The notes beneath the pieces were generated by a model that was not told where the DNA came from, searched no databases, and saw nothing but the letters and a program-made list of their open reading frames with translations. The translations under genes and the position numbers were made by a program. A stretch of 64,000 nucleotides of DNA from Thalassobius sp. Cn5-15 (lineage in GTDB: Bacteria > Pseudomonadota > Alphaproteobacteria > Rhodobacterales > Rhodobacteraceae): NCBI RefSeq assembly GCF_022347685.1, contig NZ_JAKRGF010000004.1, positions 124,001 to 188,000 of the forward strand. The letters are read 5' to 3'. Below are positions 43,340 to 64,000 of this stretch, piece after piece; position 1 is the first letter of the stretch, and every line of letters begins with the position of its first letter.

Positions 43340-43372
43340 AAAAAGGCCCGCCAGCGGTAAAGCCGGCAGGCC
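43340..43372 (-). terminator. Terminator downstream of phnE2
   Basis: Arms 43362-43372 and 43345-43355 pair over 11 positions with six bases in the loop; two G-U pairs form only in the leftward RNA. A run of five T follows on the minus strand (43344-43340). It would separate the transporter operon from the acyltransferase, perhaps incompletely. Confidence 0.8.
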
Positions 43373-43398
43373 CTCGATCAACGGAAGGGGGAGGATCC

Positions 43399-45575: not shown

Positions 45576-45591
45576 GATGTATACCTCAAGT

Positions 45592-45626
45592 AAAAACAGG
45601 CCCCGGCATGAAATGCGGGGCCTGTT
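45592..45626 (-). terminator. Hairpin between phnD and phnE1, partial terminator
   Basis: A stem of about 12-14 bp (45613-45626 with 45595-45608; core AACAGGCCCCG) is followed by five T on the minus strand. It lies 16 bases past phnD and inside the operon, so it probably attenuates rather than ends transcription, giving more binding protein than permease. It may also protect the phnD mRNA 3' end. Confidence 0.75.
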
Positions 45627-45642
45627 TCAAGAAAGGGAAAGC

Positions 45643-46551: not shown

Positions 46552-46627
46552 CTTCTCTCTCCGATGTTGAACCCTGCCTGTCGCGGCAGGAGATGAAAAC
46601 TTGGTCAATCGTTAATGGGGTATGTCG

Positions 46628-47437
46628 TTACGCTGGCACGGCCGCAGGGCGCTGGGTGTTCAGTGCCTCGATCGAGGTGCTGGTGGCGGCCTCGGAAAAA
46701 CTGGCGTCGGCGCCGTAGATGTCGCGGGCCGCGCCGGTGGTCAGCTGGTCGGGCGTGCCGTCAAAGACCACGCGGCCGTGACGCATGCCGATCACGCGGT
46801 CACAGTAGCGGCGGGCGGTGTCCAGCGTGTGCAGGTTGGCGATGACCAGACGGCCATCCTCGTCATGCAGGCGACGCAGGTCGTCCATCACGATCTGGGC
46901 GTTCATAGGGTCCAGCGAGGCGATGGGTTCATCGGCCAGCACAATCTTCGGATTTTGCATGACCGCGCGGGCAATCGCCACGCGCTGCTGCTGACCGCCA
47001 GACAGGGCTTCAGCCCGTTTGGCGGCGTGACCGGCGATGCCAAGGCGTTCCAGAATGTCCAGAGCGCGGTGAATGTCAGAGGTGGGGTACAGATTGAACA
47101 GTGTCGCTGCGGTCGAACGTTTGTTCAGTGTGCCGTGCAGAACGTTGCTGACAACATCCATGCGCGGCACCAGATTGAACTGCTGAAAGATCATCGCGCA
47201 GTCCGCCTGCCATCGACGTTTGTCCGCGCCTTGCAGGCCGGTCACGTCCTGGCCGTCAAAGACAATGCGGCCTGAGCTGGCGTCTTCCAGACGGTTCAGC
47301 ATCCGCAACATGGTGGATTTGCCCGCGCCTGATGCACCAATCACGCCGATCATCATCGGTTTGTCCACTTTGATCGACACATTGTCGACGGCGGTATTGG
47401 CACCAAAGATCTTGGTCAGGTTTTCGATGTTCAGCAT
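46628..47437 (-). CDS. phnC: Phosphonate ABC transporter ATP-binding protein PhnC
   Basis: The 269-residue ABC ATPase has Walker [18 protein letters not shown]-loop [14 protein letters not shown] typical of PhnC, signature [14 protein letters not shown], Walker [14 protein letters not shown] and the switch histidine in [10 protein letters not shown]. It powers phosphonate import through PhnD/PhnE. It is the first gene of phnCDE1E2; a Pho-box-like repeat lies 55-72 bases upstream. Confidence 0.95.
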
Positions 47438-47557: not shown

Positions 47558-48310
47558 TCATTCCTGTGACCGCAGTTTTGACCGCATCACATGACCGGGC
47601 AGAATGGCGAAGTTCTTGGCATAACGCGACGCCAGCCGCGCTGGATTGCCCAGCATCCGCCATAGCCATTCCATTGCCATCTGGCGAACCCATCGCGGTG
47701 CGCGTGTCTGCGTTCCCGCCAGAAAATCCAAGCCCGCCCCTATAGAGACAAAGCCAAGGTCGGGCGTCAGCTGACGGCCGCGCGCGGCGAACCGCTCTTG
47801 TTTTGGAGCCCCCAGTGCCAACAGGCAGACCCGCGCGCCTGCATCCTGCGCAGCGTTCAGAATATCGACGGCCTCCTCACCCATCGGGTCAAACCCCATC
47901 TTGGGTGCATGTTGATAGGCGATTTTCAGATCGGGATTTTCAGCGCGCAGCGCCTCCGCCGCGCGGGACAGGGCGTCTGCCTGGCTGCCGATCAGCGCAA
48001 TCGGTACCTGATGCGCAGCACAGAGTGTGGTGATCGGCAGAACCAGATCGGACCCCGGCATCAGATCTACAGGCCGGCCCGCCAGCCGTGACATCCAGAC
48101 AATCGGGTTGCCATCAGCCACCACCAGATCCTGTGCTCGATAGGCCTGCCGGAATGCCTCATCACGGCGCAGTTTTTCCAGATGGTCCATGTTCAGTGTC
48201 GCCAGCGCAAATCCTTGATGGGCTTCAAACCGCTGTACCAGCGCCTGCTGCAACCCCGCCCATTCAGCGACATTCACTGAGAGAGAGTAGGACCCGATCC
48301 AGAATTTCAT
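47558..48310 (-). CDS. WecG/TagA/CpsF-family glycosyltransferase
   Basis: The 250-residue protein matches the GT26 family: LATLNMDHLEKLRRDEAFRQ near residue 38, VVADGNPIVWMSRLAG near residue 64, and ALGAPKQERFAARG near residue 165. Such enzymes add N-acetylmannosaminuronic acid, N-acetylmannosamine or related sugars to a lipid-linked intermediate at the membrane face. It is divergent from the polysaccharide operon that begins at 48506, sharing a 195-base control region. It is probably an early glycosyltransferase of that locus. The exact sugar cannot be read from sequence. Confidence 0.9.
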   Translation of the reverse strand: MKFWIGSYSLSVNVAEWAGLQQALVQRFEAHQGFALATLNMDHLEKLRRDEAFRQAYRAQDLVVADGNPIVWMSRLAGRPVDLMPGSDLVLPITTLCAAHQVPIALIGSQADALSRAAEALRAENPDLKIAYQHAPKMGFDPMGEEAVDILNAAQDAGARVCLLALGAPKQERFAARGRQLTPDLGFVSIGAGLDFLAGTQTRAPRWVRQMAMEWLWRMLGNPARLASRYAKNFAILPGHVMRSKLRSQE

Positions 48311-48505: not shown

Positions 48506-49636
48506 GTGATCAAAGGCGATGTGGTTCTGATAGGTTGCGGCTTTGTTGCCGACCTCTATATGCGGTCATTTCAGACTTTCCCCGGTATTCGTATCCTTGG
48601 CGCTTATGATCACGCCCCCGCGCGGCTGCAGCGGTTTTGCGATTACTGGGATTTGCCGCGCTTTGCCTCGCTGTCTGATTGTCTGGCGGCGCTGCCGCAG
48701 GGCGGTGTGGCGCTGAATCTGACCAACCCGTCAGCGCATTTTGTGGTCAACAAGGCGATTTTGGACGCAGGTCATCATTGCTATTCGGAAAAGCCACTGG
48801 CCTTGGAAATGACAGAGGCGAAGGTGCTCTATGATCTGGCACAGGCGCGTGGGCTGATGCTGTCTTCGGCCCCCTGTAGCGTGCTGGGGGAGGCGGCGCA
48901 GACACTGGCGCAGGCGGTGCGTGATAAGGTGGCTGGCCCCGTTCGATTAATCTACGCAGAGCTGGACGATGGGTTCATTCCGCAGGCTCCGCTAGAGGAT
49001 TGGAAGAGTGAGAGTGGCGCGCCCTGGCCTTTTGAGGATGAGTTTCAGGTGGGCTGCACGCTGGAACATGCGGGGTATTACCTCAGCTGGTTGATTGCGA
49101 TGTTCGGCACCGTGCGTCGGGTTGTTGCCGCCTCGGCAGAGGTGTTGCCGGACAAGCGCGGCGTAGCAGATACCGCGCCCGATTTTTCGGTCGCAACCCT
49201 GTTTTTTGAAGCGGGCCCGGTGGTGCGGTTGACCTGTTCCATCGCCGCGCCCCATGATCACCAGATCCGCGTTGTTGGCGACAAAGGCGTCTTGGTGGTG
49301 AAACAGGCCTGGCACAATGGCGCGGCCGTGCGATTTCATCGCCGGTTCCGATTGCGCCGACGCTTGATCGACAGCCCATTGGGGCGTCGTCAGCGCTTGC
49401 GGGAGGTAACGCCGCCCAAGGTCGGGCGGCGCGGCGCGGCCTCGATGAACTTCGCGCTTGGCGTGGCAGAGATGTTGGCCGCTCTGGTGGATGATCGGGG
49501 CTGCAGATTGTCGAATGAGTTCGCGCTTCACCTTAATGAGGTCACATTGGCCATTCAAAACGCGGGCGAAACATCGGGTGCATGCACGATGACCAGCCGC
49601 TGTCCGCCGATGGCGACGGTTGGCTGGCCAGCGTAA
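48506..49636 (+). CDS. Gfo/Idh/MocA-family NAD(P)-dependent oxidoreductase
   Basis: The 376-residue protein starts at GTG with GGAGGG upstream. It has a Rossmann fold with VVLIGCGFVADLY at the N-terminus and the family's catalytic lysine motif YSEKPLALEM near residue 94, followed by the C-terminal beta-sheet domain. Such enzymes oxidise or reduce nucleotide sugars, for example in the making of uronic or amino-sugar precursors. It is first in the operon of sugar-modifying enzymes and glycosyltransferases, so its substrate is probably a sugar nucleotide. Confidence 0.85.
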   Translation: MIKGDVVLIGCGFVADLYMRSFQTFPGIRILGAYDHAPARLQRFCDYWDLPRFASLSDCLAALPQGGVALNLTNPSAHFVVNKAILDAGHHCYSEKPLALEMTEAKVLYDLAQARGLMLSSAPCSVLGEAAQTLAQAVRDKVAGPVRLIYAELDDGFIPQAPLEDWKSESGAPWPFEDEFQVGCTLEHAGYYLSWLIAMFGTVRRVVAASAEVLPDKRGVADTAPDFSVATLFFEAGPVVRLTCSIAAPHDHQIRVVGDKGVLVVKQAWHNGAAVRFHRRFRLRRRLIDSPLGRRQRLREVTPPKVGRRGAASMNFALGVAEMLAALVDDRGCRLSNEFALHLNEVTLAIQNAGETSGACTMTSRCPPMATVGWPA

Positions 49637-49688
49637 CGAAGGGCGTCAATAGTTTAGACGATCTGGTGTTTGAGTAGATGAGGGTTTT

Positions 49689-50693
49689 GTGACAGATCAG
49701 GCAATGCAAGGCAAAGAGACGGGGCAGGTGTTGCGGCTGTTGATCACCGGCGCGACGGGCGCGTTGGGGTGTGAAGTGGTGCGCCAGTGTCTGGTCGCGG
49801 GCCATCATCTGACGTTGGTTGTACGTGATCCGTCCCGCTGTCCGCCAGCGTGGCGGATTGATCAACGCATTACAGTGGTTGAGCGTGATCTGACCTCAAT
49901 AACCGAGCTGCCGCAGGCAGATGTGGTGCTGCACCTCGCGGCGTCCCTCTCTGGCGATGCTGCGAAGCAGCAGAAAAATACCGTCGAGGCGACGCAGTCG
50001 TTGATGTGCGCAGCACAGCGAAGCGAGGTGCCTCCTGCGATCGTGCTGGCGGGGTCGATGTCTGTTTATTCGGCGATGCATCTGTCTGCGGGGGATGTGG
50101 TGGACGAAACCCGACCACTAGAGGATCAGCCGCATCTGCGAGACGCCTATTGTCACGCCAAGTTGGCGCAGGAACAGATGTGTCGCGACGCTGCTGTTGC
50201 CATGAACGTCCCGCTGCAAATCCTGCGGATTGGGGCCATTTGGGGCCCGGGGCGTTTGTGGAATGCCCATCTTGGCGTCATGTTGGGGCCGGTTTTCTTG
50301 CGTCTTGAAAACAAGGGCGAGTTGCCGCTATCCCACATTCGCCATGCTGCACAGGCGCTGCGATTGGCGGCAGAGGCGGCGGCGCGCGGGCAGTCGGATG
50401 TGATCAATGTGGTGGACAGTGATTTGCCGGATCGCACAACCTATCTGGCGCAGCATCGGCGCACAGGCTGGCCGCGTCTGGTGCTGCCGTTCCCATGGAA
50501 AATATTGGCGCTGGCAGCGCGGTTGACCCGGTCCTGTTTGCCGATTGGTCTGTTGAAATTGCCAACTATACGCTATCGTATGATGCCATTGCGTTTTGCC
50601 AACACGGCATTGACCGAACGCCTCAAATGGCGGCCTGAGGCAGGGTTTCAGACATTGATGGATGAGGCCGTGCGGCGGGGGGGTAAGCCATGA
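49689..50693 (+). CDS. NAD-dependent epimerase/dehydratase (extended SDR)
   Basis: The 334-residue protein starts at GTG 49689 with GATGAGGG upstream. It has the NAD-binding glycine motif LITGATGALGCEVVR near residue 17 and the active-site YCHAK (YxxxK) near residue 155, with the serine in VLAGSMSVY. It probably epimerises or dehydrates a nucleotide sugar. Its stop overlaps the next start (ATGA), linking it to the GT4 gene. Confidence 0.87.
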   Translation: MTDQAMQGKETGQVLRLLITGATGALGCEVVRQCLVAGHHLTLVVRDPSRCPPAWRIDQRITVVERDLTSITELPQADVVLHLAASLSGDAAKQQKNTVEATQSLMCAAQRSEVPPAIVLAGSMSVYSAMHLSAGDVVDETRPLEDQPHLRDAYCHAKLAQEQMCRDAAVAMNVPLQILRIGAIWGPGRLWNAHLGVMLGPVFLRLENKGELPLSHIRHAAQALRLAAEAAARGQSDVINVVDSDLPDRTTYLAQHRRTGWPRLVLPFPWKILALAARLTRSCLPIGLLKLPTIRYRMMPLRFANTALTERLKWRPEAGFQTLMDEAVRRGGKP

Positions 50694-51961
50694 CTGATCA
50701 GATCCACATCGCCTACCTCACTGGTGAATATCCTCGCGCTACCGATACTTTCATCCAGCGTGAGGTTGCGGCGCTGCGCGATCAGGGATTTACCGTCTCC
50801 ACCTGTTCCATCCGCCGCACAGGGGCGGAACATCTGGTAGGCGCCGAACAGTGCGCCGAACAGGCTCGCACCTTCCATGTGCTGGAGGCTGCGCTGAGCC
50901 CGTTGACCGCTCTGCGCGCGCACTGGCGGGCGCTGTGCAACCCGCGTCGTTATCTGCGGGCGCTGAAACTTGCGCTAACAACCTCTCCCGGCGGGATCAA
51001 ACCGACGATTTATCAGCTGTTCTACTTTGCCGAAGCTGTGGTGCTGGCTGATCATCTACGGACCCATGACGTGCAGCATCTGCACAACCACATTGCCAAG
51101 GCCAGCTGCACCGTGGCCATGCTATGCGAGGAGTTAAGCGGTATTCCCTATAGCTTCACCCTGCATGGGCCGGACATCTTCTTTGAACCCATACGCTGGC
51201 GTCTGGATGCGAAAATCGCGCGGGCGCGGTTTGTTGTCTGCATCAGTGATTTCTGTCGCTCACAAGGGATGAGTTTTGCGCACCGTCGCGATTGGTCGCG
51301 GATGCACATCGTGCACTGCGGCGTGACGCCAGAGCGGTATGACAGCGCGCCCAATCGCACTGGCAATCACCTGTTGTTCGTGGGGCGTCTGGCCGCTGTT
51401 AAAGGCGTGCCTGTCTTGTTGGAGGCGCTGGTCGAGGCGCGGCGCGAAAACCCCGAACTGCATCTGTCTCTGATTGGAGATGGGCCCGAGCGGGCAGAGT
51501 TGGAGGCCGAGGCGCAGGCGCTGGGATTGGGGCATGCGGTTCAGTTCCTTGGCTACCGTTCGCAGTCAGCGGTTGCGGAAATGCTATCCGAGGTGGACGC
51601 ATTGGTCCTGCCCAGTTTCGCCGAAGGTGTTCCCGTGGTGTTGATGGAGGCAATGGCCGCAGGCCTGCCCGTGGTCACAACCCGCATCGCGGGCATTCCC
51701 GAACTGGTGGATGATGGGGTCAGCGGTCATGTGGTGTCACCGGGCGATGTTGATGCGTTGAGACGTGCATTGCGCGACGTGCTGGCGGATGCTGACGGCG
51801 CCGCACAGATGGGCGCAGCGGGTCGCGCCAAGGTGAAGGCTGAATTTGACATCGCGCAGGAGGCGGCGCGCTTGGGTGGCTTGTTCCGTGCTTATCATGG
51901 GGGCAAATCGCCGAATGTGGTGCGCGCGCCATTGCCAGATAAGGCGGGGGATCGACCATGA
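50690..51961 (+). CDS. Glycosyltransferase family 4 protein
   Basis: The 423-residue protein is a GT-B glycosyltransferase: an N-terminal acceptor domain starting HIAYLTGEYPRATDTFIQRE, and a C-terminal donor domain with LLFVGRLAAVKGVPVLLEAL near residue 225 and the EX7E-type motif FAEGVPVVLMEAMAAGLPVV near residue 307. It is close to colanic-acid-type enzymes that transfer a sugar from NDP-sugar with retention. ATGA overlaps at both ends couple it to the epimerase and the GT2. Confidence 0.92.
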   Translation: MTDQIHIAYLTGEYPRATDTFIQREVAALRDQGFTVSTCSIRRTGAEHLVGAEQCAEQARTFHVLEAALSPLTALRAHWRALCNPRRYLRALKLALTTSPGGIKPTIYQLFYFAEAVVLADHLRTHDVQHLHNHIAKASCTVAMLCEELSGIPYSFTLHGPDIFFEPIRWRLDAKIARARFVVCISDFCRSQGMSFAHRRDWSRMHIVHCGVTPERYDSAPNRTGNHLLFVGRLAAVKGVPVLLEALVEARRENPELHLSLIGDGPERAELEAEAQALGLGHAVQFLGYRSQSAVAEMLSEVDALVLPSFAEGVPVVLMEAMAAGLPVVTTRIAGIPELVDDGVSGHVVSPGDVDALRRALRDVLADADGAAQMGAAGRAKVKAEFDIAQEAARLGGLFRAYHGGKSPNVVRAPLPDKAGDRP

Positions 51962-52929
51962 CCCAGCCCACCGTCGCCGCCGTTGCCATTGGCCGTAACG
52001 AAGGGGAACGCTTGATCCGCTGCCTTATCAGCCTGCGCGGGCAGGTGGATCAGGTGGTCTATGTTGATTCCGGTTCCACCGATGGATCTGTGCAGGCAGC
52101 GCGGGATTTGGGTGTTGCGGTGGTGGAGTTGGACGCCTCTGCGCCCTTCACCGCCGCGCGGGCGCGCAATGCGGGGTTTGACGTCTTGCGTCAGGATTTG
52201 CCCACGTTCGTGCAATTCGTCGATGGCGACTGCGGGGTTGAAGATGGCTGGATTGCCGCCGCACTGGATGCTTTTTCGGGGCGCGAGGATTTGGCCATTG
52301 TCACCGGATGGCGCTACGAGGTGCATCCTGAGGCCAGTGTTTACAACCGCCTCGTGGACTATGAATGGCACCGTCCAGCTGGTGACATTAGTGCCTGCGG
52401 GGGCGACATGATGGTGCGCAGTGCGGATTTCATCGCGGTGGGTGGATTTGACCCAACCGTGATTGCCGCCGAAGATGATGAGTTCTGCACCCGCCTTCGC
52501 AAATCCGGCAGGCATCTGCTGCGTATCCCGCTGGCGATGACGCGCCATGACGCAGCTATGTTGCGCTTTGGTCAATGGTGGCAGCGCGCGGTACGATCCG
52601 GCCATGGCTTTGCGCAGGTGGGGGATTTGCACCCCGATTACTTTCGTCCTGAACGGCGGCGTGTGATGCTGTACGGTGGCGTGCTGCCTGCGATCGCCCT
52701 TATCGGGGCCCTATGGTTCTGGCCGCTACTGCTGCTGGTGGTTGCCCTCTATACGATATCGTATGGTCGCACAGTGCAGGGGCTACGGCGCGGGGATTTG
52801 CCGCGTAAAGAGGCATTGCATCAGGCTCTCTTCCTCAGCCTGTCGAAATGTCCCAATCTTTCCGGCATGATCCGCTACCATCTGCGCAAAGCGCGCGGGC
52901 GTGCCATGCATATTATTGAATACAAGTAA
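51958..52929 (+). CDS. Glycosyltransferase family 2 protein
   Basis: The 323-residue GT-A enzyme has VAAVAIGRNEGERLIRCL at its start, VVYVDSGSTDGSVQAARDLG near residue 30 and the metal-binding DGD in FVQFVDGDCGVED near residue 85. One or two C-terminal hydrophobic helices (about residues 236-262) may hold it at the membrane. It transfers a sugar, with inversion, to the growing polysaccharide repeat. The start overlaps the GT4 stop (ATGA). Confidence 0.9.
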   Translation: MTQPTVAAVAIGRNEGERLIRCLISLRGQVDQVVYVDSGSTDGSVQAARDLGVAVVELDASAPFTAARARNAGFDVLRQDLPTFVQFVDGDCGVEDGWIAAALDAFSGREDLAIVTGWRYEVHPEASVYNRLVDYEWHRPAGDISACGGDMMVRSADFIAVGGFDPTVIAAEDDEFCTRLRKSGRHLLRIPLAMTRHDAAMLRFGQWWQRAVRSGHGFAQVGDLHPDYFRPERRRVMLYGGVLPAIALIGALWFWPLLLLVVALYTISYGRTVQGLRRGDLPRKEALHQALFLSLSKCPNLSGMIRYHLRKARGRAMHIIEYK

Positions 52930-52940
52930 GGAGGCCCGAT

Positions 52941-55028
52941 TTGCCGCATTCTTCCTCCACCCCTCGCCGGATCGGCATTATTGGCGCTGGCTATATCGCC
53001 ACCTGGCACGCAGATGCGCTGAAGGCTTCGCCTCATGCGACTGTGACGGCTGTTTGTGACGTGTCGCTTAGTACGGCAGAAGCTTTGGCAGCGGGGTACG
53101 GTGCGCAGGCTTTTGGGTCGGTGGCCGATATGGTGGCGGCCGAGGTGGTTGATGCGGTGCACATCTTGACGCCGCCGCATTTACACCTGCCCATCGCGCT
53201 GGAGTGCATTGCGGCAGGACTGGACATACTGGTGGAGAAGCCAGTAGCAGAAAGTGCGGCTGAGCTGCGCCAGATTGCGGATGCCGCAGCGGCGGCTGGG
53301 GTGCAGTTTCACGCCGGTCACAACTTCCTTGCCGTACCGGGCTATCAGCGGCTGAAACAGGCGTTGGATCAGGGCCGCATCGGGCGGCTGTCATCGGTTG
53401 AGGTGAACTGGCATCTGCCCTTGGCCCCGTTGCGGTCGGGGCCGTATGGTTTGTGGCTGCTGCGAGAGGCCCGCAACTTGCTGCTGGAATTGGGTCCGCA
53501 TCCGTTTTCTTTTGCTGTGGACCTGCTGGGTCCGCTGACGATCAAACACCTAGAGGTCAACCAGCCGATCACCCTGCCGGGTGGGGCGGTGCGCCATCAG
53601 GGCTGGCGCATCCTGGCAGAGGCAGGGGATGTGGCGGTGACGCTGAATCTGTCGATGGTGGAAACTCATGATGACCGCTCGCTCACTTTGCGGGGATCGT
53701 CGGGTTTGGCGCGGCTTGATTATGCGGCGGACGCTTTGGTTCTGGCGTCTGACAATGCGGCGGATCTGGTGATGAACCCGTTCTTGAAACAGATGTCTCT
53801 GGCGGGGCAGCACCTGCGCGAGGGGGTGGTGAACGCCGCCCGACAGTTGGTGACATTGAATCAGAAATCGCCCTACGGCCTCAGCTTCCGCGGTATGGTC
53901 GATGCGGTCTGGGGGCCGCAAACTTCGCCACAGTTTGCGCCCGAGGGGGCGGGCCATGTGATGCAGGCGATTGACGATGCTCTGGCGATGATGCCTGCGC
54001 CGGTTGAGGCTATGACAGTCACCGGCACCCCCGCCCCCCGCGTGATGGTCATTGGGGGTACCGGATTTATCGGCCGCAACCTGACCCGTCGTCTGGTTGC
54101 CGCAGGGCATGATGTACGGGTTCTCAGCCGGGGATCGTTTGGACCTTTTGCCGATCTTGCCGATCATGTGGAAACCATGGCCGTTAGCCTGCGAGACAAA
54201 CAGGCCCTTATCGCGGCGATGGACGGCATCGACGTGGTGTTCAATCTGGCGAAGTCTATGGATAACACATGGGAGGCCGCGCTGGAAAACGATGTGGGGA
54301 CTGCCCTGCGCATTGCTGAGGCGGCACAGGATGCGGGTGTGAAGCGGCTGATCTACACCGGGACCATCGCATCCTACGACATGTCGGATCCACGCCAGAC
54401 AATTACCGAGGATACGGAATTCGGTGACATGTCCAGTCGCAACCTCTATGCGCGCTCCAAGGCGGAGTGTGAGGCGCGGCTGCTTCAAATGCACTGCGAC
54501 AGTGACCTGCCTTTGGTCATTGCCCGCCCCGGTATCGTGATTGGCGAAGGTGGGCCGCTACAACATTGGGGCATCGGGCGTTGGCATGGTGCCGGGGCGG
54601 TGCGGATCTGGGGCGGTGGTGACCATACGCTGCCGTTTGTGCTGGCCGATGATGTGTCTGATGCGCTGATTATGATGATGGACCACTCTGATGCGGTGGG
54701 CCGTAGTTTCAATCTGATTGGCGACCCCATGTTGTCTGCGCGCGGCTATTTCGACGCGATCGAGCAGTCGCTGGGCGCACGGATAAAGGTGCGTCGCGGC
54801 AGCCTCATTGTCTTCTGGGCGGTGGATGGGATGAAGTATCTGCTGAAAACTAAGGTGCTGCGCCGCCATGGTGTTGTGCGTCCCTCGCTCAAGGATTGGC
54901 AGAGTCGCGCGCATTTCTCCCTTTTTGACAATGCGCAGCCTAAAGCGGTGCTGGGCTGGCAGCCGGAAGCGGACGCAAAGCGTTTTGTGGACCGTGGCAT
55001 CCGCGACGCAAACCTGTTCGGTCTATAG
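52941..55028 (+). CDS. Fusion of a Gfo/Idh/MocA oxidoreductase and an SDR epimerase
   Basis: The 695-residue protein joins two NAD-dependent enzymes. Residues 1 to about 350 are a MocA-type oxidoreductase (IGIIGAGYIATWHADAL near residue 11, LVEKPVAESAAEL near residue 96). Residues from about 368 form an extended SDR (VMVIGGTGFIGRNLTRRLVA, then YARSK as YxxxK, with IYTGTIASY before it). TTG at 52941 is the start, with AAGGAGG six bases upstream and no in-frame ATG at a better place. It would carry out two consecutive steps on one sugar nucleotide, for example oxidation or reduction plus epimerisation; the substrate is unknown. Confidence 0.88.
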   Translation: MPHSSSTPRRIGIIGAGYIATWHADALKASPHATVTAVCDVSLSTAEALAAGYGAQAFGSVADMVAAEVVDAVHILTPPHLHLPIALECIAAGLDILVEKPVAESAAELRQIADAAAAAGVQFHAGHNFLAVPGYQRLKQALDQGRIGRLSSVEVNWHLPLAPLRSGPYGLWLLREARNLLLELGPHPFSFAVDLLGPLTIKHLEVNQPITLPGGAVRHQGWRILAEAGDVAVTLNLSMVETHDDRSLTLRGSSGLARLDYAADALVLASDNAADLVMNPFLKQMSLAGQHLREGVVNAARQLVTLNQKSPYGLSFRGMVDAVWGPQTSPQFAPEGAGHVMQAIDDALAMMPAPVEAMTVTGTPAPRVMVIGGTGFIGRNLTRRLVAAGHDVRVLSRGSFGPFADLADHVETMAVSLRDKQALIAAMDGIDVVFNLAKSMDNTWEAALENDVGTALRIAEAAQDAGVKRLIYTGTIASYDMSDPRQTITEDTEFGDMSSRNLYARSKAECEARLLQMHCDSDLPLVIARPGIVIGEGGPLQHWGIGRWHGAGAVRIWGGGDHTLPFVLADDVSDALIMMMDHSDAVGRSFNLIGDPMLSARGYFDAIEQSLGARIKVRRGSLIVFWAVDGMKYLLKTKVLRRHGVVRPSLKDWQSRAHFSLFDNAQPKAVLGWQPEADAKRFVDRGIRDANLFGL

Positions 55029-55165: not shown

Positions 55166-56269
55166 ATGGTTGAGCAGTCGAAGAAAGCAATTCGTCAAAA
55201 ACGGCAAGCCCGCCGTGCGGCCCGCGCTGCGCAGGCGGCGGCTGAGGCATTGCAGGATACCCCCGTGGAAGAGGGTAAGCGCGAGGGTGGTTTCCTGATG
55301 CCCAGCGGCACCACTGCTGACGATATCGCTGATCAGGACCGTGCCCTGCGCGCGGCCTTCCCAATGTGGGAAGAGGATGAGGCAGAAGATGAGGTCGTCT
55401 CTTCTGCTGAACCTGTGCCTGAGCCTGCCGTTGAGGTTGCGCCTGCGCTGAAACCAGCCCCACTTCTGCTGACCCCTGCCGAAGCAGCACCCGCCGTGGA
55501 AAATATCGCTGCGGTATCGCACGATGACATCAAGGAAGAGGCGGTGGACGACTGGCCGTTTCTGGGTCCAATGCCGGTGCAGCGCGGCGCACTGTCGCGC
55601 AATCTGATCATCACCGCCAGTCGCCGCAATTCTGTGCATGCAGCCTTCGACGTCTTACGGACGCGGTTGGTGCAGGCGCTGTCGGAAAACGGCTGGAAAC
55701 GGGTTGGGATAACCTCGCCCACGCGCGACTGCGGCAAAACCTTTGTGTCGGTCAATCTTGCTGTGGCCCTGTCACGTTATGACAATTGTCGCACGGTGCT
55801 GATGGATATGGATATGCGCAATCCTAGTGTTGCCAAAACGCTGGCACTGCGCGATGTGGGCAGCATCGGTGACTATCTGCGCGGGCAGGTTGCGACTCGC
55901 GATCAGTTTTTCAAGTTTGACCGCAACGACCTGAAGATTGGCGATAATCTGGCGGTTGCAATGAATGAACAGGTAGAGAGTTTTGCTGGTGAGTTGTTGC
56001 AGCAACCCGAAACTCGCGAACGCCTGCAACAGATGGAGGAGGAGCTGCATCCCGATGTGGTCCTCTTCGATCTGCCGCCTGCGCTGGCGAATGACGATGT
56101 TATTGCCTTCAAGTCGCAGTTTGATGGTGTGTTGGTCGTGATTGACGGCACCCGCACCAGTGCCGCACAGGTGCGGGAAGTGATGCGCCGTCTGGGCAAG
56201 GATACCCCGCTTCTGGGCGTTGTGCTGAATAAGGCCGAAGATGCCACTGGCGAGGAATATCGCTACTAA
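55166..56269 (+). CDS. CpsD/CapB-like tyrosine autokinase with long N-terminal extension
   Basis: The 367-residue protein is a free-standing BY-kinase. About 130 N-terminal residues are basic at first and then acidic and proline/alanine-rich, and likely disordered. The kinase part has Walker A SPTRDCGKTFVSVN near residue 183, A' TVLMDMDMRNPS near residue 210 and Walker B DVVLFDLPPAL near residue 293. The C-terminus EEYRY offers two tyrosines. It should pair with a Wzz-type membrane activator; the nearest lies convergently at 56348. It ends the plus-strand polysaccharide operon. Confidence 0.88.
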   Translation: MVEQSKKAIRQKRQARRAARAAQAAAEALQDTPVEEGKREGGFLMPSGTTADDIADQDRALRAAFPMWEEDEAEDEVVSSAEPVPEPAVEVAPALKPAPLLLTPAEAAPAVENIAAVSHDDIKEEAVDDWPFLGPMPVQRGALSRNLIITASRRNSVHAAFDVLRTRLVQALSENGWKRVGITSPTRDCGKTFVSVNLAVALSRYDNCRTVLMDMDMRNPSVAKTLALRDVGSIGDYLRGQVATRDQFFKFDRNDLKIGDNLAVAMNEQVESFAGELLQQPETRERLQQMEEELHPDVVLFDLPPALANDDVIAFKSQFDGVLVVIDGTRTSAAQVREVMRRLGKDTPLLGVVLNKAEDATGEEYRY

Positions 56270-56347: not shown

Positions 56348-57604
56348 TCAGCCGCGCCCGAACAGACCGGCCAGACGCCGCCGCAGCGGTGGGCGGTCGG
56401 TGTTGGCAGCGGTGTAGCCACGCGGTGTGCGCAGGTGCGGAATGATCACCACAGGGCGCACATCCAATGCTTGCTCCACATGGCGACTGGTGCGCAGCAC
56501 GGGGCTGAGAAGCTCTATCAACAGCGCCAGCCCCAGCGCCCCGAAGACCGAGGCGATGCATCCCGCCAATACGATCTTAAACTTGCGTGAGGTGACCGCG
56601 TATTCCGGCACCAATGCGGTTTCCAGAACCTCGAACCGTTCGAACTGATCCTGACTTTCCAGCTGGCGAGCCATCGCGGCCTCTGTCCGGCGCTGGGTGA
56701 TCTGTTGGTATTCGGTCTGCAGCTGTGCCGATTGACGCGCCAATAGGGTAAAGACACGCTCCACCTCTGGCGCGCCGGCCAGGGCGCGTTCGATACCAGC
56801 GATCCGCTCGTTCACCAGCGCGATCTGCTGGCGCAGTACCTCTGCCTGACGGACGCGTTCATCGGTGCGCAACCGTTCCGAACTGGTTTCGATCTGAATC
56901 AGCCGGTTTTCCAGCGTCAACTGGTTCTGCCGCAACAGCGCCAGCTGTTCGCGCTGGTCAGTGATCACGCTTGGCAGCGAGTCGGCGTGTTGTTCTTTGT
57001 AGCGTGCGAATTCAATCTCGAGTGCGTCCATCGCGGCGCTGATGCGTGCCTCTTCGGCCTCAAAGAAGGCAAGCGTCTGGGTTGTCTGGCCTTCGCTGCG
57101 TTTTTTGCCCTCAACCAGCACCTGTGCCAGCAGCTCGTTGGCTACATCTGCGGCCTGCTCGGGATCTTCCAGCCGTGCGGTGATCACCAGACCTGAGGGT
57201 TGTACATCGGTGCGCCATGCCTGAGAGGGGTCGATCAATTCGACAATTTCCACAGATTCACGCAAGGCGGTGACCTTTTCCGCCTGTGTCAGATCGGCAG
57301 AGCGGTTGAACAGATCAAATTTTTCCACCACAGCCAGCACGCTGTCGCGTGACATTAGTTTTTGTTCGATCAGCTTCAAGCGGTTGCGGTTGTTGCTGGA
57401 CACAATCGCTGTGCCCGCGCCTTGCAGCGCGGTGGAGACCTGCGGTGCCTCGATCTGGATGACCGCGCTGGCTTCATAGACCGCGGGGCGGTTCAACGCA
57501 AACAGCACGGACAGAATGGATCCGCAGATCATGGTCGCAATGATCAGCAAGGCACGCCGGCACAAAATCCGATAAAGGCTGGAGGGAGAGATTAGAGAGC
57601 TCAT
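56348..57604 (-). CDS. Wzz/GumC-type polysaccharide chain-length determinant
   Basis: The 418-residue protein has two transmembrane helices, near residues 15-36 (ALLIIATMICGSILSVLFAL) and 375-396 (VLAGCIASVFGALGLALLIE), with a periplasmic part between them that is rich in coiled coil (RLRTDERVRQAEVLRQQIA). It has no kinase domain and ends with a short basic tail. It should act with the separate CpsD-like kinase encoded convergently 78 bases away. ATG 57604 (MSSLISPSSLYRIL) is chosen because TM1 then lies at the expected place. Confidence 0.9.
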   Translation of the reverse strand: MSSLISPSSLYRILCRRALLIIATMICGSILSVLFALNRPAVYEASAVIQIEAPQVSTALQGAGTAIVSSNNRNRLKLIEQKLMSRDSVLAVVEKFDLFNRSADLTQAEKVTALRESVEIVELIDPSQAWRTDVQPSGLVITARLEDPEQAADVANELLAQVLVEGKKRSEGQTTQTLAFFEAEEARISAAMDALEIEFARYKEQHADSLPSVITDQREQLALLRQNQLTLENRLIQIETSSERLRTDERVRQAEVLRQQIALVNERIAGIERALAGAPEVERVFTLLARQSAQLQTEYQQITQRRTEAAMARQLESQDQFERFEVLETALVPEYAVTSRKFKIVLAGCIASVFGALGLALLIELLSPVLRTSRHVEQALDVRPVVIIPHLRTPRGYTAANTDRPPLRRRLAGLFGRG

Positions 57605-57637
57605 AAATCGTCCTGTCGTGCGATACCGTCGCGTACT

Positions 57638-57658
57638 TGCGGACAAAACACGTCCGCA
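57638..57658 (-). promoter_or_regulatory. Inverted repeat in the Wzz leader
   Basis: TGCGGAC (57638-57644) and GTCCGCA (57652-57658) form a perfect 7-bp inverted repeat with a seven-base loop, 34 bases upstream of the Wzz ATG. It could be an operator or leader hairpin. No T-run makes a terminator unlikely. Confidence 0.45.
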
Positions 57659-57764
57659 TACTGCGTTTAGGTTAGCAGATCTGGCGCTTTGTTCCCAATT
57701 TTTTGGGGTATTTAGGGTGGAAACAATTTCTTTCTGGATCGTGGATCGGCGCCATGTTTCTGCC

Positions 57765-58778
57765 TTATTTGGTGGGGTTTTCGGCAAAAATGCCACTCAG
57801 GGGTTGGGTTTTGACCACCTCCCAGGTGATTTCTTGCATCAAACGGGCGGTTTCTGCGGGAATCGGGCTGAATGCGCTGCCATCAGTGCGCGTCAATTCA
57901 TGAGGCAGGCCGACGGGGGATCGCTGGTAGATCGTTGCAAAATGGGTCAGCGCCGTCAGATAGGCGCCCAGATCGTTGATGTGGATCGGATCTAGATCAC
58001 CCGATTCGGTGCGCGCAAACAGATCGTTGCGATCCTGCATGCCCGGCATACCGCCGCGGGCCTCTACCGCCCGGGTGACGGCGGCCATGACCTGACCGGT
58101 GGGTATGACGTGGATGCGTGTCGCCTCTGGCAGGTTCAGCAGTGCGGGGAATAGGATCTGACCTGTCCAATAGCGATCCAGATCCAGATCCAACCTGGTC
58201 AGCCATCCTGCGGGATCTGTCACCTCATGCCATGTTTCATAGAAATAGATCCGCACGTTCGGATTGCCTTGCCGCGCCAAACGCGCCCAGTTGGTCAAGG
58301 CCTCGGCACTGTCGAAATAGGCGATGGCATCGCGGATCTCGACCATCTCGGTCAGCACAACGGCGTCATAGTCACCAGAGGTCAGCGCCTCTTTGGCGTC
58401 GCGGTAGTGGGGGTGAGCGTTTTCAGTGTCAAAGCCGTTGATCGTCTCGGCGGGATCCCAATGCGCGCGTAGTGGCGTGCCCCAACCCAGTTGTGAATGA
58501 TGATCTGGTGCGGTGCCAAAATGCGCGGCGGTCAGCTGTTGTAGCATCACCGGCATATCGCGACCCACCAGTGAATGCCCAAGGTGAAAGACCGCGCCTG
58601 CCTGATCCAACCCGTCCGCAGGTACGGCAAATCGCGCCGCGATGTCGGGATCTGTGCGAGGGATCACCGTGGGTGCCATGAGGGGTGGGATCACCTCCAT
58701 CGCCATACGGATCAGTATGGCCAGCGCGGCCAATGATAAAACCGGATATCGTCTGATGTGTCGCAACACAGAGACCAT
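57765..58778 (-). CDS. SGNH-hydrolase-like membrane-anchored protein
   Basis: The 337-residue protein has a single N-terminal hydrophobic helix (PVLSLAALAILIRMAMEVI, about 12-30) and a predicted periplasmic domain. Two elements resemble SGNH/GDSL esterases: VFHLGHSLVGRDM, with a candidate nucleophile Ser69, and LDPIHINDLGAYL near residue 270, which fits the DxxH block. Such proteins often add or remove acetyl groups on surface polysaccharide. It follows the phosphopantetheinyl transferase by 15 bases and precedes wzz by 160. Family assignment is moderate; enzymatic role is inference. Confidence 0.6.
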   Translation of the reverse strand: MVSVLRHIRRYPVLSLAALAILIRMAMEVIPPLMAPTVIPRTDPDIAARFAVPADGLDQAGAVFHLGHSLVGRDMPVMLQQLTAAHFGTAPDHHSQLGWGTPLRAHWDPAETINGFDTENAHPHYRDAKEALTSGDYDAVVLTEMVEIRDAIAYFDSAEALTNWARLARQGNPNVRIYFYETWHEVTDPAGWLTRLDLDLDRYWTGQILFPALLNLPEATRIHVIPTGQVMAAVTRAVEARGGMPGMQDRNDLFARTESGDLDPIHINDLGAYLTALTHFATIYQRSPVGLPHELTRTDGSAFSPIPAETARLMQEITWEVVKTQPLSGIFAENPTK

Positions 58779-58793: not shown

Positions 58794-59462
58794 TCAGCGA
58801 TCCTTGAGGGTGCAGGCAGAAATGACCCACCGGTCAGTTTGCACATAACGCCCTGTGGCGACAAACCCTGTTTGGAATGAACCCAGCTGTTGATTGAACC
58901 GCGCGGCGAACCGGTCGCCGTCTAACGTCACATCGAGTGCCTGAAAGTCGCACAGCTGATGGGTTAATGGATATTGCGCCTTGTAGACGGCTTCTTTGAT
59001 GGAAAAGAGGACTTTAACCTGCTGAGCGCGGCGCCAGAAAGGCAGTTGCACCAGCGCTCGCTGTTCGCGTGAGGTGAGGATGATCGACCATGCTTCTTTC
59101 TCCAGCGGAGCGGTATTTTCGATGTCTACCCCGACAGCGCGCCAGACAGACATGGGGCAGGCCACTGCGACGCAGAGGTTGGCGCAATGGCTGATTGACC
59201 CCATGATGCCTGCGGGCCAGACGGGACTGCGATCTGCGGCTTGCGGGATGGCCTGCGGTGGCATGTTGATGTCCGCCAGCGCCATGCGGGCAGCAGCGCG
59301 GCCGGCGGCAAATTCGATCTGTCGCTTGGGGATTGCATTGGTGACAGCAGGCTGTTCGGGTGCCATCAGGGTATGGGAGGTGTCGCGGGGGTTGGTCACG
59401 CCGACCCCGACATCCGATCCAAAAAGATCCCGTAGGATCACACAAATTTTGCCGTTCACCAT
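58794..59462 (-). CDS. 4'-phosphopantetheinyl transferase (Sfp/EntD type)
   Basis: The 222-residue protein has the Sfp-superfamily motifs: RQIEFAAGRAAARMAL near residue 47, the substrate loop MGSISHCANLCVAVAC near residue 87, the metal site AVGVDIENTAPL near residue 109 and FSIKEAVYKAQYP near residue 152. It transfers phosphopantetheine from CoA to the serine of a carrier domain; EntD-like members serve NRPS. It begins 9 bases after the NRPS gene, so it is very probably dedicated to that enzyme's carrier domain. Confidence 0.92.
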   Translation of the reverse strand: MVNGKICVILRDLFGSDVGVGVTNPRDTSHTLMAPEQPAVTNAIPKRQIEFAAGRAAARMALADINMPPQAIPQAADRSPVWPAGIMGSISHCANLCVAVACPMSVWRAVGVDIENTAPLEKEAWSIILTSREQRALVQLPFWRRAQQVKVLFSIKEAVYKAQYPLTHQLCDFQALDVTLDGDRFAARFNQQLGSFQTGFVATGRYVQTDRWVISACTLKDR

Positions 59463-59471
59463 TCTGTCGTT

Positions 59472-62400
59472 CTAGTGGTTTCTCTTGGCCATACGGCGCT
59501 TGCGCATTTCCCGGCGCCGCGCCATTGCGTCGCTTCTTGATTGGGGGCCATCCTGTGCGGTTTGAGTTGTGGGCGCAAGGGGCGTGTGGTTTTCTGTTGC
59601 GGCGGGCGTGCTGGGCTTGGTGGAGAGACCTTCGGTCAGTTTGGCGCACAATGCCTCCAGTACGGGGAAGCGGAAGATATCCGTGATCGCCAGAGAGGTT
59701 GCGCCCAGTCGCATACGGATTTCACGGTGGGCCTGTACCGCCAGTAGCGAATGACCGCCGAGGTCAAAGAAGTTGTCGCGCGGCCCGATCTGATGCACGC
59801 CAAGGATATCGGACCAGATCGCGGCCACCTGATGTTGAATGTCGTCGCTGAGCGGCAGGGCTGGCACGGCTTCGGCACGGCGCGTTTCGGGCGCGGGCAG
59901 GGCGTTGCGGTCAATCTTCTTGTTTGGCGTCAGTGGGAACTGATCCATTCTGACAAAGGCGCTGGGCACCATATAGTCGGGCAGATTAGTCGCTAGACCC
60001 GCGCGCAGGGCCGCTTCATCTACGGCAGCAGAGGCCGTGTAATAGCCCACCAGCTGCGTGGTGCCAGAGGTGCCGTCGCGGGCCACGACCACCGCCTGCG
60101 TGATGGCGGCATTGGTTGCGATTGCAGCCTCAATCTCTCCCAGTTCAATCCGGTAACCGCGCAGTTTTACCTGATGGTCGGCGCGGCCCAGATAATCCAG
60201 ACGTCCGTCACCGCGCCAGCGCACCAGATCGCCGGTGCGGTAGATGCGGTTGCCGGGGATAAACGGATCGGGCAGGAAACGTTCCGAAGTCAGATCCTCG
60301 TGCTGCCAATAGCCACGCGTCACACCCGCGCCACCGATATACAACTCCCCCTCCGCACCGATGGGCATCGGCTGCATCTGGTCATCCAGCACATAGACCT
60401 GCTGGTTGGCCAGTGGTGTGCCGATATTAGCGGTTGCCTCATCGCCCGTCGCAGCCGCTGTGGTGGACCAGATCGTGGTTTCGGTCGGCCCATACATGTT
60501 GCTAATCCGCGCCTCTGTCACGCTGCGCAGGTCGGAGACCAGATCACCGGGCAAAGCCTCCCCCCCGATCAGCAGGTGATTGATCCGACCAAGAGCGAAG
60601 CGCGCCTCATCGTTCATCGCAATCATCCGCGCCATCGACGGGGTACATTGCAGGTGGGTTACATCATGGCGTAGAATTTGCGCTGCGATGGAGAAGTCAT
60701 CGTCGGCCAGTGTATCGCAAACATTCGCCCCTTCCAGTACGCGGGCCAGATGAGTCAGCCCCTGCAACACGGTTTTCTTTTCAATGCCATAGTCGATTAG
60801 GCACGCGACCTCATCCACGCCGATGCGTTTCAGTTGTTCGACCCGCGCCAGGCAGTCATTCACGGTACCAAATAGCCCTGAGTCTTCAAAATACCGCTGA
60901 AAAGCGAAATCAAGGATCGCCTCCAGCTCTTCCCCGTCGAGCGAGTCGAGGTTGAGGTCAAAGGCGTTTTTCACTCCCTCAGGCCGCTTGAAGGCGGGAA
61001 AGGCCCAAGCGAATTGCTTGATCAGCCCAGCGGCAGAGCGCAGATAATCCTTCATCGGCTCACGGGCGATGTCGCGGGCGGCTTCGCGATCCTCTGCCAC
61101 AAAGGTGTGTAGCATCAGCGTCACGGTGAAATCCGCCGGATCATGGCCTGCCTCGCGCAGGGCGGCGTGGTAGATCTTGATCTTTTCACCCACTTCCTCA
61201 ATCGACTGGCCCAGAAGGTGGGTTAGCACATTGGCGCCGATCTCTCCCGCTTCGCGCCATGTGGCGGGATTGCCTGCGGTGGTGACCCAGATTTGCAACG
61301 TCTTCGACACTGGGCGCGGTTGGGTGACGATGGGGTGCATGGAGCCATCGCCCATGGGAAACTCAACCGCTTCGCCACGCCACAGTGCGCGTAGCTGTTC
61401 TATGCTGCGCAGCATGGCGGGTTTGTTTTCCGGGGGGGTGTTTTCAGGGCGCAGAACAAAATCATGCGGCTGCCAGCCTGAGGCAATGCCGATGCCTGTG
61501 CGCCCGTTGGTCAGGTTGTCGATCACCGCCCATTCCTCTGCCACCCGCGCGGGATGGTGAAGGGGGGCAACGCAGCTGCCTGCACGTACGGCGATGTTCT
61601 GGGTCAGCGCGGCAACAGCGGCACCGGTCACAGACGGGTTGGGATAAGGCCCACCAAAGGCGTGGAAGTGGCGTTCTGGCGTCCAGACCGCGCAGAACCC
61701 GTTCTGGTCGGCGAATGTCGCCCCTTCGAACAACAGTTCGTACTTGTCACGGCCGACGCCATCATCGTTGCCCCAGTAAAACAGGCTGAAATCCATGCCG
61801 CGGCCTGTCTGATTCACCGGCCCAGATGACACCAGTGCACGGTTGTCGTCCGCGGACAGCACCAGCTTGAAACCGCGCGTCAGGGTATAGAACAGTTCCA
61901 ACACCGAAATGTCGAAGTTCAGCGAAGTGACTGCCAACCATACGGTACCGTCTGCCGGGCAGATCACCCCGTCCATACCTGTGAAGAAGTTGCTAAGGTT
62001 GCGGTGTTCGACCATTACCCCTTTGGGCCGCCCGGTGGAGCCAGAGGTATAGATCATATAAGCCAGATCGCTGCCTGCGACCACGACATCCAGATTGTCA
62101 GTGGGCGCTGACAGGATGCGTGGATCCCTGTCCATCGCCAGCACCTCTGCCTGATGGGCCGGCAGATCGCCCAGCATGCCTTGTTGGGTGACGATAATCT
62201 GGCAAGCGCTATCTTCAACATATAGTGCGATGCGATCCGGCGGGAACGCGGGGTCCAGCGGTACATAGGCGCCGCCAGCCTTTAGGATGCCAAGGGCACC
62301 GATTATCAGATGTGGCGTGCGTTGAGTGTTGAGGCCGACGAGCGTTCCGGGTTTCACCCCCAAATCGCGCAAAACATGCGCCACCTGATTGGCGCGGGTG

Positions 62401-63998
62401 TTCAGTTCCAGATAGGTGAAACTGTCGCCTTCCACCACCAATGCTGTAGCATGCGGAGTCTGCGCGACCTGCCGTTCAAACATCTGATGCAGGCAGAGGT
62501 CAGCGTTATAATCGACCGCGGTCTGGTTCCAATCGCTTAGAACCATCTCTCGCTCTGCTGTGGCAAGACGGGGTAGGTCTGCAATGGCCCCGTCGGCGCT
62601 GGCCAGCATGCCGACGCGGGCGGCCAGTGCGGTGAGCATCGGCTGCGGTACCTGTGCAGCGTCAGCCCGTAAGGTTGGTGCGGGCGACAGGCATAGTGTA
62701 ACCAGTGCATCAGGGCAGGGATCTACGCTGTCACTGATGGCAAGCAGTGGCTGCGCTTGCAGCGCACCAGGCAGGCGGGCAGGAAGGTCTGCAGCGACAG
62801 CGCCAAGGGAACGTGCCTGCGTTAGGGCGGCGTGTAATGTCTCATGTGCTTTCGTCACATCCGCGTCGGTGACCATGCGCAGTGGTGTCCACGGCAACAG
62901 ATAGGCGTCCGCCGATGGACGCGACGCGTGATAGGCCAGATCGACACTTGCATTGCCGGTGATTTGCGCCGCGACCAGTCCCCATGCGGTGATTGCCTGA
63001 TCAGCGGGCAAGTCCAATGGTTGCTCCAGCAGACCGGTTGCTCCCGTAGGCATGGCGGGCAGGGTCGCTGGTGTCAGCGTTTCAAACAACGGGCGCAGCA
63101 TGGCCTCGGCCTGTGCGGCGGGTTGCAGGGCTGCGGAGATGTCAGCGGTTTCTGTCGCGTCAGGCTGCGTCAGGCGGGCGCCAACCACAGGCAGCGCGAT
63201 GTCAAAGGCGCGGTCATTTAGCGCGCTTAATTTGCTGAAGATCACCGCCCCATCGCCGCAGGCCACGGTCAGTGCGTCCGCATCCGCCGCGAGTACCGTG
63301 CCCGGCGCTGTGCCTGCGGGCACTGTCAGGGTTGCGGGTTGTGCGCTGCCAACCAGCGCTAGCCTGTCCGCCAGCGTGATCTTGGCGCAGCAGAGTGGGT
63401 TCCAGTATCCACCATGATCCAGCGCCCGTACCAAAGCGCTGATTTCACCTGCGCCTTGGGTGAAATCCAGGTGTCCACCGGCTGCGGGCCGATCGCTGAA
63501 CCCATAATAACTGCGCTGGGCGAAATCCTGCGGCTGCCCCGCGACGTCCCCTGTTTCCAGCAGGTCCATCAGATCGGGGAAGCTGTCCAGCGCTGCTTCA
63601 TAGCAGCGGGTGTTCAGGGTCAGAGCAGTGTCATTTGGGTGAATGTCAAACAGACGTTGCACCAGAATATTGCCGCGATCGGCGCCGCTGGTGATGTGGT
63701 GCCAGCTGATGCCATGGCGGGCCTCGCCATTTTTCAGCGCCCATACGGGGGCGTTTAGGCCGGCATAGGCGGGCAGCGGGCCATCGTGGAAATTGATTCC
63801 GCCGCGCTGCGGGCATGCCAGCACATCGGCGTCCAGCATGTCGAGGTTGGCAATCGACAGCAGCCAGTCGAAGGTCGCAGGCAGGTGCGTCACCAGATCC
63901 GGGCCGGGGGTAATGGTATGCAGCCCCTTTTCTGCTGCCCAGACGGCGACGTCTTTGGACCGTGTGACCACCGCCGCCACGCCATGTCCGCGCGTCAA
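59472..63998 (-). CDS. NRPS: formyltransferase, adenylation domain with inserted luciferase-like monooxygenase, carrier domain; 5' end cut
   Basis: The visible 1508 residues contain, in order: a formyltransferase domain (about 1-190; N69, H71 in GINFHDGPLPAYAG and D106-107 region in SGADRGNI give the Asn/His/Asp triad); a poorly defined linker (about 240-480); the N-terminal part of an adenylation domain (505-705; A3 YTSGSTGRPKGV at 650-661, A4 FDIS at 695-698); a luciferase-like flavin monooxygenase (about 735-1070, MDFSLFYWGNDDGVG to RIGVDEVACLIDYG); the rest of the adenylation domain (1100-1370; A5 YGPTETT, A7 YRTGDLVR, A10 TPNKKIDRN); a carrier domain with Ser1417 in DLGGHSLLAV; and a basic tail. 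No condensation or thioesterase domain is visible. The true start lies beyond the window. Confidence 0.9.
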   Translation of the reverse strand: MTRGHGVAAVVTRSKDVAVWAAEKGLHTITPGPDLVTHLPATFDWLLSIANLDMLDADVLACPQRGGINFHDGPLPAYAGLNAPVWALKNGEARHGISWHHITSGADRGNILVQRLFDIHPNDTALTLNTRCYEAALDSFPDLMDLLETGDVAGQPQDFAQRSYYGFSDRPAAGGHLDFTQGAGEISALVRALDHGGYWNPLCCAKITLADRLALVGSAQPATLTVPAGTAPGTVLAADADALTVACGDGAVIFSKLSALNDRAFDIALPVVGARLTQPDATETADISAALQPAAQAEAMLRPLFETLTPATLPAMPTGATGLLEQPLDLPADQAITAWGLVAAQITGNASVDLAYHASRPSADAYLLPWTPLRMVTDADVTKAHETLHAALTQARSLGAVAADLPARLPGALQAQPLLAISDSVDPCPDALVTLCLSPAPTLRADAAQVPQPMLTALAARVGMLASADGAIADLPRLATAEREMVLSDWNQTAVDYNADLCLHQMFERQVAQTPHATALVVEGDSFTYLELNTRANQVAHVLRDLGVKPGTLVGLNTQRTPHLIIGALGILKAGGAYVPLDPAFPPDRIALYVEDSACQIIVTQQGMLGDLPAHQAEVLAMDRDPRILSAPTDNLDVVVAGSDLAYMIYTSGSTGRPKGVMVEHRNLSNFFTGMDGVICPADGTVWLAVTSLNFDISVLELFYTLTRGFKLVLSADDNRALVSSGPVNQTGRGMDFSLFYWGNDDGVGRDKYELLFEGATFADQNGFCAVWTPERHFHAFGGPYPNPSVTGAAVAALTQNIAVRAGSCVAPLHHPARVAEEWAVIDNLTNGRTGIGIASGWQPHDFVLRPENTPPENKPAMLRSIEQLRALWRGEAVEFPMGDGSMHPIVTQPRPVSKTLQIWVTTAGNPATWREAGEIGANVLTHLLGQSIEEVGEKIKIYHAALREAGHDPADFTVTLMLHTFVAEDREAARDIAREPMKDYLRSAAGLIKQFAWAFPAFKRPEGVKNAFDLNLDSLDGEELEAILDFAFQRYFEDSGLFGTVNDCLARVEQLKRIGVDEVACLIDYGIEKKTVLQGLTHLARVLEGANVCDTLADDDFSIAAQILRHDVTHLQCTPSMARMIAMNDEARFALGRINHLLIGGEALPGDLVSDLRSVTEARISNMYGPTETTIWSTTAAATGDEATANIGTPLANQQVYVLDDQMQPMPIGAEGELYIGGAGVTRGYWQHEDLTSERFLPDPFIPGNRIYRTGDLVRWRGDGRLDYLGRADHQVKLRGYRIELGEIEAAIATNAAITQAVVVARDGTSGTTQLVGYYTASAAVDEAALRAGLATNLPDYMVPSAFVRMDQFPLTPNKKIDRNALPAPETRRAEAVPALPLSDDIQHQVAAIWSDILGVHQIGPRDNFFDLGGHSLLAVQAHREIRMRLGATSLAITDIFRFPVLEALCAKLTEGLSTKPSTPAATENHTPLAPTTQTAQDGPQSRSDAMARRREMRKRRMAKRNH

Positions 63999-64000
63999 CA

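Follow-up and report, generated by a model that had tools for sequence, protein, structure and literature searches.

We report that an NRPS gene at the edge of the analysed DNA (the window, a stretch of 64,000 nucleotides corresponding to positions 124001-188000 of the contig) very probably encodes a loading module that feeds a PKS from the same operon. The assignment to a two-module NRPS–PKS is based on the reduction of the condensation (C) domain of the NRPS to its C-terminal lobe and on the presence of the PKS in the operon. Taken as a whole, we regard it as fairly probable that this compact line yields a formylated, glycine-derived acyl unit, perhaps as decoration of a polysaccharide.

Results

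The NRPS gene occupies 59472..64000 on the minus strand (also L003:3472-8064, minus strand) and encodes 1530 amino acids with the architecture FT–C-lobe–A(LLM)A–PCP. The window end falls inside the gene; on the extended contig, the true start is an ATG 64 bases past this end, at extrapolated position 64064, and not the TTG at 63998, such that the full gene runs from 59472 to 64064. All parts lie on the minus strand. The formyltransferase (FT; residues 1-300, 63165..64000, continuing to 64064) matches Formyl_trans_N (76-161) and Formyl_trans_C (197-285) in Pfam/NCBIfam searches of the full protein and carries the triad N91, H93 and D129. After residues 302-525 (62490..63161), a C-terminal condensation-domain lobe with no HHxxxDG lobe, the AMP-binding match comes in two stretches: the first part of the adenylation (A) domain, up to A4 (residues 529-742, 61839..62480), and the second, A5-A10, from about residue 1112 (to 1390, 59895..60731), including AMP-binding_C (1310-1383). 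Between them, and between the motifs FDIS (717-720) and YGPTET (from 1191), sits a luciferase-like monooxygenase (LLM; residues 759-1109, 60738..61790) matching TIGR04020 with 482 bits at a cut-off of 244. A single peptidyl carrier domain (PCP; PP-binding, residues 1412-1474, 59643..59831) with Ser1439 follows. FT triad and carrier serine are identical in 76 of 76 homologues. The split A domain, the intact N-terminal triad and the one C-terminal carrier were all recognised in the sequence-only reading and are borne out here. The protein ends in a conserved basic tail (AMARRREMRKRRM; 59475..59564), whose motif (D)AMxRRRxMRxRR recurs in 68 of 76 NRPS homologues and is lacking from all 75 PKS tails; one may guess that it is a docking helix.

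A search of other genomes, as proposed in the earlier reading for this domain order, gave full-length homologues in at least 80 of them (511 loci were confirmed, of which 80 were kept), indicating that the architecture is not due to chance. An assembly error or pseudogene was rejected, as all active sites are intact in dozens of genomes. The relatives belong mostly to Rhodobacterales, and Hydrogenophaga and Curvibacter are also represented. Among 199 genomes of the window's family, sampled nearly throughout as one per genus, 70 gave a strong TIGR04020 match, as did 24 of 397 genomes sampled across the phylum; the matching frames of the 70 almost all span some 1200-1900 codons. The LLM matches in L101, L103 and L104 were left out as members of other assembly lines.

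The operon comprises, on the same strand, PKS, GT2, NRPS and PPTase, with the first two upstream of the NRPS and beyond the window. The PKS (2154 aa, KS-AT-KR-DH-ACP-TE) overlaps the glycosyltransferase gene by 4 bases, the latter ends 1 base before the NRPS start, and an Sfp-type 4'-phosphopantetheinyl transferase (Pfam; 58794..59462, minus strand) follows 9 bases downstream. The order PKS–GT2–NRPS(–PPTase) was observed in 58 of 59 loci with all genes called, at median gaps of -4 and -4 bases; outside Rhodobacterales, the NRPS–PKS pair has no GT2 between its genes. The checked catalytic residues of FT, PCP, KS, AT, KR, DH, ACP and TE are conserved in 75-76 homologues. The KR keeps the last Asp of the LDD motif, which by general rules leads to an E double bond, and such a bond would be expected in the predicted product. 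The AT motif AAHS is invariant among the homologues and is neither the textbook malonyl nor the textbook methylmalonyl motif, hence the extender unit is uncertain.

Across several bacterial families and in varied gene orders, the NRPS–PKS cassette sits with, and is inherited with, surface-polysaccharide genes, which makes for a strong tie. In the window, it is followed by genes for a Wzz-like chain-length protein (56348..57796, minus strand; marginal Pfam match), a Wzc/ParA-like ATPase of the polysaccharide locus (55166..56269, plus), a fused Gfo/Idh–NAD-epimerase of 695 aa (52941..55028, plus), a family 2 glycosyltransferase (51958..52929, plus), a Glycos_transf_1 glycosyltransferase (50690..51961, plus), an NAD-dependent epimerase (49689..50693, plus), a Gfo/Idh/MocA oxidoreductase (48506..49636, plus) and a WecG/TagA/CpsF glycosyltransferase (47558..48310, minus). 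On the other side, 0.5 kb past the PKS, comes the genome's only strong flippase match. The genome encodes two sugar transferases, one of them at a distance of 8 kb from the PKS. Counting flippase, Wzz, Wzc, Wzy, sugar transferase and WecG within the fetched flanks as core markers, we found them in 74 of 80 loci of this cassette alone; among the six marker-free loci, two are short or cut contigs, three hold rhamnose, mannose or polysaccharide-deacetylase/GT genes, and the sixth is L077. Polysaccharide neighbours outside Rhodobacterales include a flippase (L097), an export protein (L100) and WecG, a sugar transferase and a flippase (L102). On Shinella and Aminobacter plasmids, the pair again lies amid polysaccharide genes; in Shinella, Gfo/Idh, epimerase, two glycosyltransferases and the fused Gfo/Idh–epimerase are ordered as at 48506-55028 of the window, with 41-66% identity. 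The fused enzyme co-occurs with the NRPS: it is present in 35 of the 199 family genomes, 34 of which carry the NRPS (about 12 expected, given 70 of 199 overall; Fisher p 1e-17, uncorrected for phylogeny).

Between PPTase and Wzz-like gene lies a gene for an SGNH-like protein (57765..58778, minus strand) with GHSLVG ... DPIHIN motifs and no Pfam match; some of the relatives likewise have it next to the cassette. A second protein with SGNH-like motifs adjoins the cassette (L002:7418-10303), and one of the two has an RTX repeat; both are recurrent in relatives and are possible polysaccharide esterases or acyltransferases. Further along, a phosphonate-type set (40538-47437; PhnM-like hydrolase, two permeases, binding protein, ATPase and GntR-like regulator, judged by eye on the translations) is apparently unrelated to the NRPS.

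Judging from the adjoining glycosyltransferase and the constant polysaccharide setting, the acyl unit may be glycosylated and/or used as a decoration, and we consider the chances of a role as polysaccharide decoration to be evenly balanced. The alternative that fares best is that the product of the cassette is a small molecule, secreted in free and possibly glycosylated form, and that the polysaccharide setting reflects shared carriage on islands or plasmids instead of function. Occurrence of the cassette also on plasmids and the dedicated glycosyltransferase inside the operon would fit such a metabolite, as would the Curvibacter locus L077, in which GT2 is the only polysaccharide gene, and the related loading modules that serve the longer lines L099 and L110, where no polysaccharide locus is in view. 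Yet the polysaccharide link recurs in several bacterial families whose gene orders differ, and the fused Gfo/Idh–epimerase accompanies the NRPS even in six genomes in which the two do not lie within 30 kb of each other (some of these assemblies are fragmented), making a free metabolite the rather less probable outcome.

Substrate specificity, singled out as a point to check in the sequence-only reading, could be addressed via the ten-residue code. It reads DILQLGMIWK in the window NRPS and DILQ[MLFY]GMIWK in 76 of 76 homologues; distant relatives share the pattern, one of them with C at the variable position. A survey of 2051 A domains reports DILQLGMIWK for each of four glycine domains that contain a MOX insert (PMC12283262). 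Given this identity, the A domain can with good confidence be predicted to activate glycine. What the inserted monooxygenase would do to glycine is suggested by its relatives. In myxothiazol and melithiazol biosynthesis, a monooxygenase between a4 and a5 hydroxylates glycine in alpha position and the carbinolamide is then cleaved, while solanimycin B retains alpha-hydroxyglycine (PMC10204066). The former outcome counts against our scheme, as it stems from the same kind of insert, and leads to an alternative in which alpha-hydroxylation is followed by carbinolamide collapse and loss of the formamide, the resulting glyoxylyl thioester being extended by the PKS or hydrolysed by the TE. Insertion site, code and the known cleavage outcome (PMC10204066) all speak for this course. 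It appears unlikely to us, however: formylating the nitrogen only to discard the formamide would be wasteful, all 76 homologues keep the FT triad, and alpha-hydroxyglycine is retained in solanimycin B (PMC10204066).

Residues 1-300 form a complete two-domain FMT/ArnA-type formyltransferase fold (structure comparison, Z 28). The formyltransferase is not directly joined to the A domain, since 224 residues lie in between, and this linker is nearly invisible as a half C domain by sequence: alone, it had no match in Pfam, and a weak condensation match appeared in just one of 65 homologues scanned. Foldseek with residues 1-530 gave formyltransferases alone among the matches listed; residues 302-525 were therefore modelled separately, based on 65 homologues (mean pLDDT 94). 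All matches listed for this model, in both structure comparisons, were condensation-type domains, the best being RzmA (7c1r; 196 residues, 3.7 A, Z 14.7), aligned over its residues 176-431, i.e. the C-terminal half. Together with a profile match of the linker region to McyB, the predicted fold identifies residues 302-525 as a C-terminal condensation-domain lobe. The earlier statement that the protein has no condensation domain thus stands as far as an active one is concerned and fails for this lobe.

The catalytic N-terminal lobe with HHxxxDG is absent from the NRPS and the formyltransferase stands in its place, whereas a relative from another alphaproteobacterial family (L098:7041-12620) has a full C domain before A(LLM) and an additional N-methyltransferase-like domain. 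From the missing lobe and this full-length counterpart, we infer that, in the loading module, a formyltransferase has taken over the position of a C domain's catalytic lobe; L098, whose C-A(LLM)-nMT-PCP module is divergent from its PKS, is possibly an ancestor-like form. Paracoccus marcusii (L109:13598-18189) encodes the formyltransferase on its own, in a gene that overlaps the one for A(LLM)-PCP. An enzyme for N-formyl sugars was considered and rejected, as the formyltransferase is fused to A-PCP and the fusion is kept in homologues, with the separate gene of P. marcusii noted above.

The direction of the line was deduced from relatives. Two loci (L096 and L097) encode FT-A(LLM)-PCP followed on the same strand by KS-AT-KR-DH-ACP-TE. 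Likewise on the same strand, FT-A(LLM)-PCP precedes KS-AT-KR-DH-ACP-C-A-PCP in L099, and in Aliiroseovarius (L110:13459-27198, plasmid) the loading module precedes KS-AT-KR-DH-ACP-C-A-PCP-TE. The Aliiroseovarius line adjoins genes for exosortase XrtD and VPLPA-CTERM proteins. These colinear relatives indicate loading by the FT module and extension by the PKS, with the caveat that the window operon itself is not colinear. F-A-PCP loading modules ordinarily do without an active C domain. The line is thus predicted to consist of two modules, in which the KS would condense and the TE release.

The sequence-only reading had described an isolated module with neither condensation nor release function, a view that finds no support, as the PKS of the same operon supplies KS and TE. 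As grounds for refuting it, that reading had named a condensation domain or further NRPS or PKS genes directly upstream, which would make the gene one module of a large assembly line. A PKS is indeed encoded one glycosyltransferase gene upstream, and the refutation largely applies; the line is not a large one, though, since no condensation domain was found in the whole genome with the Pfam model and two modules account for the line. A variant of the stand-alone view, in which oxidised formylglycine passes straight to an acceptor and the PKS is not involved, draws on the NRPS having neither an active C domain nor an R domain or TE of its own, and we judge it very unlikely: the PKS was found by tblastn in 79 of 80 NRPS loci, NRPS and PKS divergence are correlated across loci (r 0.88), and in relatives the PKS comes directly after the module. 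A reversed order, with a PKS-made acyl chain passed by the half-C region to glycine and the NRPS as terminal module, might be read from the PKS being the first gene of the operon and from the full C domain of L098, and is hardly credible given the missing catalytic lobe, the TE of the PKS itself and an FT that would cap the very amine needed by a C domain.

Discussion

Returning to the NRPS as loading module, we propose the following route. The PPTase would prime the carriers, and the A domain would activate glycine, as its code predicts. The intact triad suggests that the FT then formylates Gly-S-PCP with formyl-THF as donor, and, judging from the relatives in the myxothiazol, melithiazol and solanimycin pathways, the in-line FMN monooxygenase may hydroxylate the glycyl alpha carbon. 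The KS of the PKS would accept the N-formyl-(alpha-hydroxy)glycyl unit and add one putative malonate-type unit, after which KR and DH are expected to reduce and dehydrate the extended unit. The TE would finally release or transfer a 4-formamido(-4-hydroxy)but-2-enoyl-type (crotonyl-type) acid, which could be glycosylated and/or attached as acyl decoration of a surface polysaccharide. The route agrees with the earlier prediction of a single amino acid that undergoes activation, loading, formylation and probably oxidation on the carrier before it is passed on, with glycine indicated by the code. We think it likely that the product keeps its formyl group, whereas the alpha-hydroxyl could just as well be retained as lost. 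More broadly, and with doubts slightly prevailing, we put forward that many Alphaproteobacteria and some Burkholderiales, including about one third of the sampled genera of the window's family, use a dedicated two-module NRPS–PKS to make an acyl unit, started from N-formyl-(hydroxy)glycine, for attachment to extracellular polysaccharide, its loading module having arisen by the exchange of the catalytic lobe of a C domain for a formyltransferase.

If so, a widespread, well-conserved marine bacterial cluster, orphan since 2007, gains a concrete product class: a formamide-bearing C4 acyl unit, predicted to be built from glycine and one extender unit and thus testable. The place to look would be the polysaccharide fraction and not the culture extract, a reason for which metabolite screens might have overlooked the product. 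It would be unusual for an NRPS–PKS product to serve as a polysaccharide substituent, and the fusion of a formyltransferase to half a C domain provides a natural example of an elongation module turned into a loading module.

Several known systems share parts of this design. The initiation module LgrA of linear gramicidin likewise has an N-terminal FT, one A domain, one PCP and no active upstream C domain. Unlike the window NRPS, it has neither a C-lobe between F and A nor a monooxygenase insert, and it continues with a C domain rather than a KS; the FT of the window NRPS, in comparison, matches FMT/ArnA over its full length. MtaG and MelG from myxothiazol and melithiazol biosynthesis have an FMN-type monooxygenase between A4 and A5 as well, but their modules possess a full upstream C domain and end the chain with amide-forming cleavage, whereas the module analysed here has the C-lobe alone, bears a formyltransferase and would open the chain. 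Solanimycin SolF also carries a monooxygenase within a glycine A domain and its alpha-hydroxyglycine is retained; in contrast to the window NRPS, the insert is located between a8 and a9 in an elongation module of a large line (PMC10204066). RkpA and WcbR are type I PKSs in capsular polysaccharide loci (PMC3908369) and resemble the window PKS in this setting; no NRPS loading module is described for them (PMC3908369).

According to the accessible text, roseobacters share a conserved cluster of PKS, glycosyl transferase, NRPS and phosphopantetheinyl transferase whose product is unknown (Martens et al. 2007, cited in PMC5014874), and Inhi_1972 and Inhi_1974 of P. inhibens belong to this orphan PKS/NRPS cluster (PMC4062626). 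It resembles the window operon in having the four genes adjacent (PMC5014874), while the accessible parts of both descriptions mention neither the FT/half-C/LLM anatomy nor an occurrence outside roseobacters nor a polysaccharide tie (PMC5014874, PMC4062626). In the searchable literature, subscription papers being outside reach, we found no description of the combination FT–C-lobe–A(MOX)–PCP and, beyond the orphan description, none of a polysaccharide tie of an NRPS–PKS or of a function of the cluster. The cluster is hence a known orphan, and precedents exist for F-A-PCP loading modules and, independently, for MOX glycine domains; the FT/half-C fusion and the polysaccharide tie of the NRPS–PKS look new.
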